This document shows positions 5,709 to 9,543 of a stretch of 12,563 nucleotides of DNA, in pieces. Below the pieces are notes generated by a model, which made no database searches, was not told where the DNA came from, and saw only the letters and a list, made by a program, of their open reading frames with translations. Numbering within the stretch: the first letter of the stretch is position 1; each line of letters opens with the position of its first letter. Both the position numbers and the translations under genes were made by a program. Origin of the DNA: a bacterium (GTDB lineage Bacteria; Verrucomicrobiota; Verrucomicrobiae; Opitutales; Opitutaceae). The DNA lies in assembly GCA_021780625.1 (NCBI GenBank), contig JAJXYI010000597.1, forward strand, positions 1-12,563. Direction: 5' to 3'.

Positions 5709-5999
5709 TCACTCGCCCTGCGGCTTTCCCTCGAGGGCGAACTTCACCATGGCCTTGGTCACGGCGGCACGGGGACGGGCGAAGCGCCAGCTTCGCGTGC
5801 GGGCATCCTCGAAGACCGCGACCGTCGTCTCGACGATGGGACACCCCGGATCCAGGCAGGCGGCGTCGAAGACGCGAACGACCGCGTCGTCACCAAGGTC
5901 CAAATACTCCTTCGTCCAGCGTCGGATGGCCTCCGCCTGCGCGGGATCCGAGACCGTCGAGGGCTCTCCCGACAGCGCAGGAATCGTGAAGCGGTGCAT
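5709..5999 (-). CDS. small conserved-looking protein with CLDPGCP motif
   Basis: A 96-aa soluble protein of unknown function. It has no signal peptide or membrane segment. The notable element is CLDPGCPIVETTVAVFED (48-65), with Cys48 and Cys53 spaced by four residues, which could bind a metal or form a redox pair. The C-terminal part, RSWRFARPRAAVTKAMVKFAL, looks like a compact alpha/beta tail. It is the last gene of a run that includes a zinc-binding protein and a COG0523 GTPase and starts 30 bp after the WD40 gene, so co-transcription is likely. The ATG at 5999 is the only reasonable start. The frame's codon use resembles its neighbours and it is antisense to a longer spurious frame. A role in metal handling is inferred from context alone. 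Confidence 0.78.
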   Translation of the reverse strand: MHRFTIPALSGEPSTVSDPAQAEAIRRWTKEYLDLGDDAVVRVFDAACLDPGCPIVETTVAVFEDARTRSWRFARPRAAVTKAMVKFALEGKPQGE

Positions 6000-6008
6000 G
6001 GCGAATCG

Positions 6009-6026
6009 GGCGCGAGGAAGCGCGCC
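6009..6026 (-). promoter_or_regulatory. GC hairpin between the WD40 gene and the small gene
   Basis: GGCGCG (6009-6014), a 6-base loop and CGCGCC (6021-6026) fill most of the 30-bp gap between the two genes. The hairpin ends 9 bases before the downstream ATG, where a ribosome site would lie. It could reduce translation of the small gene unless ribosomes or RNA processing open it. There is no T-run, so termination is unlikely. Confidence 0.4.
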
Positions 6027-6029
6027 GGG

Positions 6030-7043
6030 TCACTCGGTGCAGTTGAGCACGTAAACGACGCCCTGGGCTGTGCCGATTGCCAGGTAGCGGTCGTCCGGAG
6101 ACCAGGCCATCTTCGCCGCGGCGGAGGGCATGCGAACGGTGGCGCGGAGCGGCTGCTTGCGCTCGGGACTCCACAGCATGAGCACGCCGTCGTCCGAGCC
6201 GGTCGCGAGCAGGCCGTGCTGGCGCTGGAAGGCGACCGCGCAGACGGGCGCGTCGTGGGGATACATCTGAGGCTCGCGCCCCTCGGGCCCCTCGCCTTCG
6301 CAGTCCCACAGGCAGGCGTCGCGTCCGCCGCTCGTCGCGAGCCAGCGACCCGCGCGATCGAAGCTGAGGTGTCGAACCTTGCCCTCGTAGCCGCTCATGT
6401 GAAATTCCTGATCCTGCTCCGGCAGCCATAGGTGCACGCTCGGATCCTGGTTGCCCGAGACGAGCCACCTGTTGTCGGGCGACCACACGAGCGCGTGGAT
6501 GCCGTTGGTGTAGGGAAACTCCTTCTGGACGACGTGGTCATCCGCATCCCAGAGGCAAACGCCTCCGAAGTAGGCTGCGGCGAGGCAGCCGCCCGAGGGT
6601 TGCCAGGCAAGTGCGGAGATGGTCTTGGGGGCGTCGCGAAACGCGTGCACGAGGGCGCCGTCCGCGTCGATGAGCGCGAGCTTCTTGCCGGCCGATGCCG
6701 CGAGCACGGGCTTCGCGGCACCTCCGGGGCGCCAGGCGAGGTGCTCGACCCAGGCGCCGCCGAAGTCGTAGGTCCCGGTGTGCTGGCCCGCGAGGGGGTC
6801 CCAAAACTTCACCTTTCCGTCCTGACCGCCGCTGGCGAGCGCGCGTCCGTCGGGACGCCAGGCGAGCGCGTTGGCGCCATCCTCATGCCCGGACAGCGGC
6901 GCCCCCTTGGCGCCGTCGGCGGTCGCGAAAAGCTGGACCGTTCCGGCGGCCGAAGCCGCGGCGAGGAGGGTGCCGTCGGGCGACCACTCGAGGTCGATCA
7001 CATAGTCGTCGAGCTGGGCGGCCCAGTGCTTGGTCAATTGCAT
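6030..7043 (-). CDS. WD40-repeat beta-propeller protein
   Basis: A 337-aa protein built almost wholly of WD40 repeats, expected to fold as one propeller and act as a protein-binding scaffold. Repeat signatures are readable near residues 12-40 (LEWSPDGTLLAAAS), 52-82 (GHEDGANALAWRPDG, VKFWD), 97-126, 140-166 (LAWQPSGG, VCLWD), 180-206 (LVWSPDNRWLVSG, VHLW), 220-246 (LSFDRAGRWLATSG, ACLWD), 263-291 (GSDDGVLMLW) and 306-334 (MAWSPDDRYLAIG). That is seven to eight blades, with some WD pairs degenerate. No signal peptide is present, so it is cytoplasmic. The ATG at 7043 is 16 bp after the COG0523 GTPase gene, implying one operon. A partner or platform for that GTPase is an attractive inference but unproven. 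Confidence 0.93.
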   Translation of the reverse strand: MQLTKHWAAQLDDYVIDLEWSPDGTLLAAASAAGTVQLFATADGAKGAPLSGHEDGANALAWRPDGRALASGGQDGKVKFWDPLAGQHTGTYDFGGAWVEHLAWRPGGAAKPVLAASAGKKLALIDADGALVHAFRDAPKTISALAWQPSGGCLAAAYFGGVCLWDADDHVVQKEFPYTNGIHALVWSPDNRWLVSGNQDPSVHLWLPEQDQEFHMSGYEGKVRHLSFDRAGRWLATSGGRDACLWDCEGEGPEGREPQMYPHDAPVCAVAFQRQHGLLATGSDDGVLMLWSPERKQPLRATVRMPSAAAKMAWSPDDRYLAIGTAQGVVYVLNCTE

Positions 7044-7059
7044 GTGCAGGGCGGCGGAA

Positions 7060-8466: not shown

Positions 8467-8536
8467 GACGAATGAAAGAGAAGGTTGAAAGGGTCCGGAT
8501 CGGTCGATGGACCGACACAAGAAACCGCGAGCGACG

Positions 8537-8565
8537 CCAAACTCAACCTTTTCGGCTGAGTTTGG
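8537..8565. promoter_or_regulatory. perfect 9-bp-arm palindrome upstream of the COG0523 gene, candidate operator
   Basis: CCAAACTCA (8537-8545) and TGAGTTTGG (8557-8565) are exact complements separated by 11 bases, 71 bases before the GTPase start. It sits in the 204-bp gap after znuA. No T-run follows on the minus strand, so a terminator is unlikely. A regulator site or structured leader is possible; it does not look like the familiar Zur box of enterobacteria or Bacillus. Confidence 0.45.
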
Positions 8566-8570
8566 GGTTT

Positions 8571-8668
8571 GAACCACGGAGGACGAGAGAGGGCGGGCGG
8601 ACTCTCGGTTCCGCATCGTGCGCGAAGCCGGAGCCGGGCCTCCGGGCCGGGCATCGGCCCCGTGGTTC
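8571..8668. repeat. 98-bp foldable block closed by a 9-bp inverted repeat
   Basis: GAACCACGG (8571-8579) pairs exactly with CCGTGGTTC (8660-8668). Inside are CGAGAG/CTCTCG (8584-8589 and 8602-8607) and a GC run with CCGGGCC repeated. The block fills the gap between the palindrome at 8537-8565 and the znuA stop codon. It may be a dispersed intergenic repeat or a structured 3' end of the znuA message. Confidence 0.45.
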
Positions 8669-8670
8669 TC

Positions 8671-9543
8671 TCACTTGCCGTCGAGGGCGTCGACGATCGT
8701 GGTGAGGTTGTGATGGAAAAGCTGTTCGACGGTCGAGGCGTCGGAGCCGACGGGGCCCAGTCCATCGGCGTAGAGAACGCCGCCGAGTTTGGCGCCACTC
8801 TCCTGGAGCATCGTCGAGAGCAGATGCGGGTTCTCTGTATTGTCGGCGAACACCGCGCGCACCTGATGAGCGCGGATGAAATCGATGAGCCTGGCCAGCT
8901 CGCGCGGATTGGGCTCGGCAGCGGGATTCAGCCCGAGGAGCGGCTGGATGCGAAAGCCGTAGTCGCGGGCGAGATACGCAAACGCGTCGTGGTTGGTGAC
9001 CAGGATTCGCCGGCTGGCGGGCAGCCGATTCACCTCGCGCTGAGCCCAGGCCGCGAGCGACGCGAGGCTGGCTTCGTAGGCGGCCTGGCGCTGGCGAAAG
9101 GCAGGGGCGTCCGCGGGCCGCAGGCGGGCGAGTTCCACACCGATCGCGGCGGCGACGATCCGGATGTTGCCGATGCTGTTCCACCAATGAGGATCTTCGA
9201 TCCCTCCGTCGGCTGCGGAGCGAATCGGGTTGGGGATCAGGTCGGAGGCTCGAAGGATGGCGGCCTTCGTGCCCGAGTTCGCGACCAGGCGTTCGAACGA
9301 CGGCTCCAGGTCGAATCCCGACACGAGAACGAGGTCCGCGTTGGCGATGCTCGCGGCGTCCTCGGGTGAGGGATTGAAGGTGTGTGGATCGCTCCCGGCG
9401 GGCACGAGACAGCTCACGCGCACCTCGTCGCCGCCGATCCGGCTCGCGCATTCGGCGAGCACGGAGTGGAGCGCAACGACGCGCAGGGGGCGCGCGAAGG
9501 CCGTGCTGCCAGCGAAGAGGACCAGGAGAATGAGAGACTTCAC
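8671..9543 (-). CDS. znuA: ZnuA-like zinc/manganese ABC transporter substrate-binding protein
   Basis: A 290-aa cluster A-I (ZnuA/TroA) solute-binding protein that captures Zn or Mn in the periplasm for an ABC importer. A signal peptide covers residues 1-17 (hydrophobic SLILLVLFAGSTAFA, cleaved before RPLRVV); no lipobox Cys is present. Predicted ligands are His54 (SDPHTFNPSPED), His119 (EDPHWW), His185 (VTNHDAFAYLARDYG) and Asp260 near the C-terminus (YADGLGP). The long His-rich loop of enterobacterial ZnuA is absent, as in many compact homologues. The start is GTG at 9543, preceded by AGGGTGAGG. No permease or ATPase gene is adjacent on either side, so partners must be elsewhere. The COG0523 GTPase gene downstream supports zinc over manganese. 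Confidence 0.9.
   Translation of the reverse strand: MKSLILLVLFAGSTAFARPLRVVALHSVLAECASRIGGDEVRVSCLVPAGSDPHTFNPSPEDAASIANADLVLVSGFDLEPSFERLVANSGTKAAILRASDLIPNPIRSAADGGIEDPHWWNSIGNIRIVAAAIGVELARLRPADAPAFRQRQAAYEASLASLAAWAQREVNRLPASRRILVTNHDAFAYLARDYGFRIQPLLGLNPAAEPNPRELARLIDFIRAHQVRAVFADNTENPHLLSTMLQESGAKLGGVLYADGLGPVGSDASTVEQLFHHNLTTIVDALDGK

Follow-up and report, generated by a model that had tools for sequence, protein, structure and literature searches.

How does a bacterium pass scarce zinc to the proteins that depend on it? This question of intracellular zinc allocation, still open, is raised through one small gene by a stretch of 12,563 nucleotides from an Opitutaceae bacterium (Verrucomicrobiota; assembly GCA_021780625.1, contig JAJXYI010000597.1), hereafter the window. 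This gene encodes an unnamed 96-residue protein with two cysteines and closes a run of four genes, transcribed on the minus strand in the order ZnuA-like protein, COG0523 GTPase, WD40 protein and 96-residue protein:

8671-9543, minus strand: gene of a ZnuA/AztC-like, metal-binding protein of 290 aa with a GTG start, the substrate-binding component of an ABC importer
7060-8466, minus strand: gene of a COG0523 (CobW-type) GTPase (468 aa, ATG at 8466)
6030-7043, minus strand: gene of a WD40 propeller protein (337 aa)
5709-5999, minus strand: gene of the unnamed two-cysteine protein (96 aa)

The small protein probably fills a gap in the known hand-over of scarce zinc to bacterial proteins needing it. 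The first-pass annotation of this DNA had joined the four same-strand genes into a candidate zinc-allocation set, and the short spacers that it gave are exact: 16 bp between the GTPase and WD40 genes and 30 bp between the WD40 and small genes. The stop codon of the ZnuA-like gene lies 204 bp from the GTPase ATG; thus, the tight unit comprises three genes, and znuA is not tightly coupled to it. ZnuA is a looser neighbour of the set, and it was not found near the small gene in the more distantly related loci L120, L122 and L124.

An unnamed family of two-cysteine proteins

The 96-residue protein matches no Pfam or NCBIfam model, and the 64 aligned members of its family likewise gave no NCBIfam match at E 0.01. 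The cysteine pair CLDPGCP, which had drawn attention to this protein, is part of a longer family motif:

5826-5858, minus strand: family motif CLDPGCPIVET, residues 48-58 of the small protein (motif reading and conservation)

The window protein carries all C-x4-C-x3-E-T positions of the family (C48, C53, E57 and T58). Since our genome-contig scan was seeded by the motif [DEL]PGCP[IPD][VLK]ET, conservation was recounted on 36 rows from outside that scan, where C48 and C53 are each kept in 34/36 rows, T58 in 35/36 and E57 in 32/36. Glu45 is also kept in 32 of these rows, and the window has Asp there. AlphaFold2 predicts an α-β-β-β-α fold for the window protein (mean pLDDT 84.8, pTM 0.73) and places Cys48 and Cys53 in the loop between β1 and β2; the mean pLDDT for the small protein of L084 is 87.1.

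The unnamed C-x4-C-x3-E-T family is real and large. A first protein search gave five family proteins, including the window's own, and a profile of ten sequences and another of ten Rhodobacterales-type sequences gave 408 and 1022 proteins, respectively. A tblastn search of plasmids yielded 19 records with 25-51% identity, the majority from rhizobia; several of them adjoin aztABC, Fur-family and COG0523 genes, and two are named 'nitrate reductase'.

The GTPase and WD40 genes accompany the small gene across phyla

The motif-seeded scan found 214 loci, and the best 80 (36 of them Actinomycetota) comprise L046, in which no small open reading frame (ORF) was called, six fusions to a NarJ-like protein and 73 standalone loci. 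Neighbouring COG0523-type and WD40 genes were identified by phmmer comparison with a small set of reference proteins rather than by curated models. By this measure, a COG0523-type GTPase gene lies on the same strand within 1.8 kb of the small gene in 62 of the 73 standalone loci, and a WD40 gene lies within 2.5 kb in 48; both are present in 47 and at least one in 63. Either partner is near in 33/35 loci of Actinomycetota, 15/20 of Pseudomonadota, 5/5 of Acidobacteriota, 3/4 of Chloroflexota, 2/3 of Myxococcota, 2/2 of Planctomycetota, 1/1 each of Gemmatimonadota and Verrucomicrobiota and 0/1 of Thermomicrobiota, as well as in L014, which has no phylum given. This last locus, from a metagenome-assembled genome (MAG), has a four-gene order identical to that of the window, and its small protein and GTPase are 79% and 93% identical to those of the window.

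Hidden Markov model (HMM) searches of 792 genomes, a sampling less biased than the motif-seeded scan, gave 27 matches. For 20 of these, a GTPase or WD40 gene is present on the same strand at no more than 1.5 kb; the 20 include all five matches that come from the centre genomes themselves. Four of the seven matches without a partner score weakly, under 45 bits. The background density of PF02492 is about one per Mb (91 matches in ~93 Mb of 18 genomes), from which a GTPase would be expected beside the small gene by chance in roughly 0.3% of cases. The association of the trio is not a chance one by these neighbourhood counts, and the co-occurrence that the first-pass annotation had anticipated is conserved far beyond close relatives. 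In at least 37 of the 73 standalone loci, a candidate gene for a zinc transporter, AztD or Fur occurs within 8 kb; the count is a lower bound because the scan missed actinobacterial Fur genes.

The association persists through changes of gene order. The order small-GTPase-WD40 prevails in most Actinomycetota loci, both Planctomycetota loci and some Chloroflexota, and the order GTPase-WD40-small is found in the window, all five acidobacterial contig loci, two of the three Myxococcota loci and Rhodobacterales; in L115, the genes for Zur, the GTPase, the WD40 protein and the small protein are directly adjacent or overlapping. On a GTPase tree made by a quick method and containing long branches, the order changed at least five times, with two or more changes forced by the starred branches. 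The WD40-linked GTPases form one 44-row group on this tree (SH-aLRT 81), including some without a WD40 gene, apart from ZigA and the rhizobial Sh type. Since the small gene is also found next to GTPases of the Sh type in rhizobia and next to a ZigA-like one in L120, and so occurs with several COG0523 types and without WD40, the small protein tracks the GTPase more than the propeller.

Two kinds of apparent gene fusion were rejected as evidence of interaction. P0043 and P0056, which join a GTPase start to the small protein, seem to stem from loci that were truncated or suffered a deletion, and the GTPase-WD40 fusion in L049 is a frame disruption whose GTPase part matches only ~118 residues. Separately, Rhodobacter-type loci have a protein of 109-161 residues after the small gene (L003:8237-8566, L118:9976-10461) with a GCTCC stretch like CxCC; the L003 protein has no Pfam match, and these proteins may be remnants or relatives of a COG0523 GTPase.

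Predicted Zur control in two bacterial groups

The module is predicted to be under Zur control in both Alphaproteobacteria and Actinomycetota. Alphaproteobacterial loci were scanned with the Zur box described at Paracoccus targets (PMC5387054). With at most one mismatch allowed, a site is present in the 4.5 kb upstream of the small gene in 15 of 16 main-branch loci, and 60 column-shuffled motifs reached at most 1/16. The box was found in none of six NarJ fusions and none of four CC-tail loci, two side branches described below; five of these ten loci (L052, L055, L062, L086 and L034) have less than 1.5 kb of scannable upstream sequence, one of them only 23 bases. The side-branch groups were defined by protein form, but after an earlier box scan had been seen. 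Counted over whole loci, they have no site in 62.3 kb and none in 60.3 kb, compared with 39 sites in 275.1 kb. The small gene itself has the box 92 bp upstream in L031 and 137 bp upstream in L032. Since L031 has no GTPase gene near, the small gene there appears to be a Zur target on its own. Several rhizobial boxes, up to 3.9 kb upstream, head aztABC operons rather than directly preceding the small gene.

For Actinomycetota, we used the palindrome TGAAAATGATTTTCA, which we take to be the Zur box of this group. The mycobacterial consensus agrees with it (PMC7174638). With up to three mismatches, such a palindrome lies within 600 bp upstream in 16 of 35 loci, versus none or one for 40 shuffled palindromes. 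A FUR-family gene lies between the box and the small gene in 11 of the 16 loci and directly precedes the small gene there (all 11 ORFs match PF01475). In L024, a bL32-like gene lies upstream of the small gene instead, and no box was found.

Some of these regions also contain dipeptide-type ABC transporters. The small gene of L092 (L092:5435-9267) directly follows one, Zur-type boxes precede dipeptide-type ATPase genes in Bradyrhizobium (L090, L093 and L127), and the Paracoccus zinc operon holds such a transporter too. This placement hints at uptake of a zinc-ligand complex.

Side branches of the small domain

The six fusions (L016, L052, L055, L062, L076 and L086) come from Nitrobacter (five loci) and a Xanthobacteraceae MAG (L016), and in each of them a NarJ-like protein carries the small domain at its C-terminal end. 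In L016, narH- and narI-type genes flank the fusion, which scores 29 bits against PF02613 (cut-off 22.2). The L076 protein, from Nitrobacter, resembles it by eye and has no Pfam match. Fusion to NarJ may explain why some small proteins bear 'nitrate reductase' names in databases. The second side branch consists of alphaproteobacterial homologues ending in a double cysteine (CC-tail; L010, L034, L066, L072 and L080). No zinc genes or same-strand COG0523 gene were found near them; L072 alone has such a gene on the opposite strand. A divergent member on a Leptospira plasmid (L011:5893-6231) follows metH and ahcY behind an ArsR/SmtB-type regulator.

The NarJ-fused branch suggests a wider metallocofactor role. 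Tentatively, the α-β3-α domain with its cysteine pair could be a general adaptor for metal hand-over, which would serve as the acceptor of COG0523 zinc GTPases of several subfamilies, a counterpart of HypA, and which, when fused to NarJ, would mature nitrate-reducing or nitrite-oxidising enzymes. We regard this generalisation as possible rather than likely.

The other proteins and sites of the window

The GTPase matches PF02492 at 206.1 bits (cut-off 20.7) and the CobW C-terminal domain PF07683 at 85.6 bits (cut-off 22). We read it as 468 residues from the ATG at 8466 rather than as the 518-residue ORF from 8616, with Walker A at residues 12-19 and the NKxD motif, NKTD, at residues 155-158. 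The metal site and histidine tract that the first-pass annotation had noted are both present:

8263-8274, minus strand: CICC metal-site motif (CxCC) of the GTPase, residues 65-68 (motif reading)
7678-7737, minus strand: His-rich tract of the GTPase, 20 residues, residues 244-263 (motif reading)

The CxCC motif is described as a mark of the COG0523 family (PMC9164220). Against the ZigA model NF038288, the GTPase scores 193.5 bits, under the curated cut-off of 600.

The ZnuA-like protein matches PF01297 at 231.5 bits (cut-off 29), has relatives in the PDB, and begins with a segment that resembles a signal peptide. Its best NCBIfam model is AztC (208.3 bits, cut-off 350), and it scores 57.3 bits against ZnuA (cut-off 268). 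Since it stays below every metal-specific NCBIfam cut-off listed, zinc is assigned to it from context. No permease or ATPase gene was seen beside its gene in the window.

The WD40 protein matches PF00400 at 137 bits. Residues W98, M216, G218, W246, G252 and P253 are identical in all 29 aligned rows across phyla, including the window, and the N-terminus, MQLTKHWAAQLDDYVIDLEW, reads by eye, with no predictor applied, as lacking a signal segment.

One further element lies between the znuA and GTPase genes:

8537-8565: inverted repeat with 12-base arms (one mismatched pair) and a 5-base loop

L014 keeps the right half of this repeat alone, and a regulatory role for it is therefore unsupported. No promoter-like site was found where looked for in the window. 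Just downstream of the small gene are a TetR-type regulator gene (4878-5525) and, overlapping its end, a minus-strand gene for a membrane-like 339-residue protein (3862-4881) with no Pfam or NCBIfam match. Farther along, an IS200/Y1-type transposase of 322 residues occupies 1310-2278 on the minus strand (PF01797, 39 bits).

A proposed zinc hand-over module and its alternatives

What, then, may the small protein do? We give about an even chance to a metallochaperone module for zinc starvation, in which the GTPase gives zinc, the small protein is its acceptor or adaptor, the WD40 protein is a scaffold, and ZnuA serves capture. The COG0523 GTPase would hold zinc at its CxCC site, as reported for the family, and release it under GTP gating. 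The 96-residue protein would be a dedicated, HypA-like acceptor or adaptor whose loop cysteine pair either receives the metal or supplies the remaining part of the transfer site; it would then hand the metal to client enzymes. The WD40 protein would most likely dock the GTPase with clients, and ZnuA would be the periplasmic capture end of the same zinc response. Our analysis shows family membership, conservation, the gene association and predicted Zur control in two groups; metal binding, hand-over, its direction and a physical complex are steps that we infer.

Several observations weigh against this module. Two conserved cysteines are too few for a closed zinc site, and the weak homologues L105 and L107 are without both. 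Seven of the 73 standalone loci have neither partner, and three more have a GTPase gene on the opposite strand only; one of the seven, L028, has the small gene followed by AztC, AztA, AztB, GTPase and WD40 genes. GTPase-WD40 pairs also occur in L110, L111, L112 and L125, where the small gene is not in the fetched stretch. The NarJ-fused and CC-tail branches are without a same-strand GTPase, WD40 gene or Zur box; thus, the small domain is not confined to zinc. The family is rare in each genome sample (4/194, 10/149, 6/151, 5/149 and 2/149 genomes), and these are lower bounds because scoring in each genome was restricted to a limited set of candidates. Finally, the window matches neither the alphaproteobacterial nor the actinobacterial Zur box, and the box of its lineage may differ. 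Zinc control in the window's organism is accordingly extrapolated from relatives: the zinc response expected by the first-pass annotation is supported by predicted boxes in alphaproteobacterial and actinobacterial relatives but not by a zinc box in the window.

The small protein could instead be a client to which the GTPase delivers metal through the cysteine pair, either a protein that needs zinc or a zinc-sparing stand-in. The conserved pair would suit a client, as would a small gene that adjoins the GTPase gene, is co-regulated with it, and mostly keeps a GTPase partner although the type changes. However, the small protein is short and belongs to no recognised catalytic family, and its fusion to a NarJ-like maturation chaperone fits an adaptor better than an end client. 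We consider the client role unlikely.

A redox or regulatory subunit, in which a disulfide of the cysteine pair switches the GTPase or the WD40 protein and no metal is moved, would agree with two loop cysteines spaced by four residues and with the shortage of other possible ligands: only E57 (32/36) and E45 (32/36, Asp in the window) are widely kept. On the other hand, the zinc-regulon setting and the His-rich tails, with two or more His within the last 12 residues in 9 of 64 members, favour metal, and such a switch seems to us quite doubtful.

Zur clusters gather diverse genes, and DUF1826, DUF1636 and ZigA are also near in L118 and L119, so three unrelated zinc-starvation genes might share an operon with no joint action. 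This mere co-regulation is improbable in our view, since the trio is kept across many phyla despite order changes, and also among the 36 of 73 loci in which neither a zinc transporter nor a Fur gene turned up within 8 kb. A ribosome-directed role, in which the COG0523 GTPase would bring a protein Y/HPF-like domain to ribosomes as MRF reportedly recruits MPY in mycobacteria, seems very improbable.

Comparison with known systems

The link between GTPase, WD40 and znuABC genes was already published in 2009. Haas et al. (2009, PMC2770081) describe prokaryotic COG0523 subfamily 5 genes that cluster with WD40 genes and znuABC, several of them behind predicted Zur sites, and assign most eukaryotic COG0523 proteins to this subfamily. 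The window has in common with these clusters a COG0523 GTPase beside a WD40 and a znu-type gene, and the GTPase neighbours fit subfamily 5 (WD40 at 16 bp, ZnuA-like at 204 bp). The same authors name creatinase genes for subfamily 5 (PMC2770081); the GTPase-WD40 pair of L112 adjoins a creatininase-family gene. The consulted passages of their account, supplement aside, do not mention a small two-cysteine protein. The first-pass annotation had placed both the WD40 partner and the small protein outside the well-described systems; this fails for the WD40 partner, which is in Haas et al. 2009, and stands for the small protein, for which we found no paper naming it. Likewise, we found no report of the small family, its breadth, its COG0523 ties, its own Zur boxes or its NarJ fusion among the titles and abstracts listed from the open-licence literature, supplements not covered.

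Paracoccus denitrificans offers expression data for a related gene set. The cluster pden1338-1344 comprises a COG0523 gene, two hypothetical genes and an ABC transporter; under zinc depletion, expression of the COG0523 gene and of the hypothetical pair increases 13.2-, 10.6- and 8.6-fold, a Zur motif precedes pden1338, and Zur binds the promoters tested (PMC5387054). Judged from Rhodobacterales gene order and not from their sequences, pden1339 and pden1340 would be the WD40 and small proteins. A pden1338-type box before an ATG was found in one of 394 genomes, before a cobW-type gene cut by a contig end, and the small gene was not found in the genus of that genome (one genome). Paracoccus denitrificans is absent by name among the 120 matches listed in a third protein search, most of which have no species name. 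A WD40 match in Paracoccus liaowanqingii was rejected as the pden counterpart, since it covers 25% of the query and has no such zinc genes beside it.

The AztABCD operon combines a β-propeller, AztD, with a ZnuA-type protein, and COG0523 genes are often near (PMC6689063). AztD is exported, whereas the window WD40 protein reads as lacking a signal segment; NCBIfam reported no AztD match for it, and whether NCBIfam holds an AztD model was not checked. ZNG1 is a COG0523-related zinc transferase active in zinc deficiency with methionine aminopeptidase as its client (PMC10642216). No aminopeptidase gene was noticed beside the window GTPase. ZNG1 carries an N-terminal CPEL-type motif before its P-loop, whereas the N-terminus of the window GTPase has no such motif.

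The HypB-HypA pair likewise joins a G3E GTPase to a small partner. HypA has a four-cysteine zinc site, and the small protein has two conserved cysteines instead. No match to the HypA family model was found in Pfam for the window member, L084 or L020, or in NCBIfam for the window member or the 64 aligned rows; the likeness is therefore one of working only, and the predicted metal is zinc rather than nickel. HypB readies nickel for transfer to HypA, and the clients and partners of many COG0523 GTPases are described as unknown (PMC9164220). A co-regulated small partner of three COG0523 types gives a direct handle on zinc allocation, and one shared domain ties the zinc response to NarJ-type maturation.

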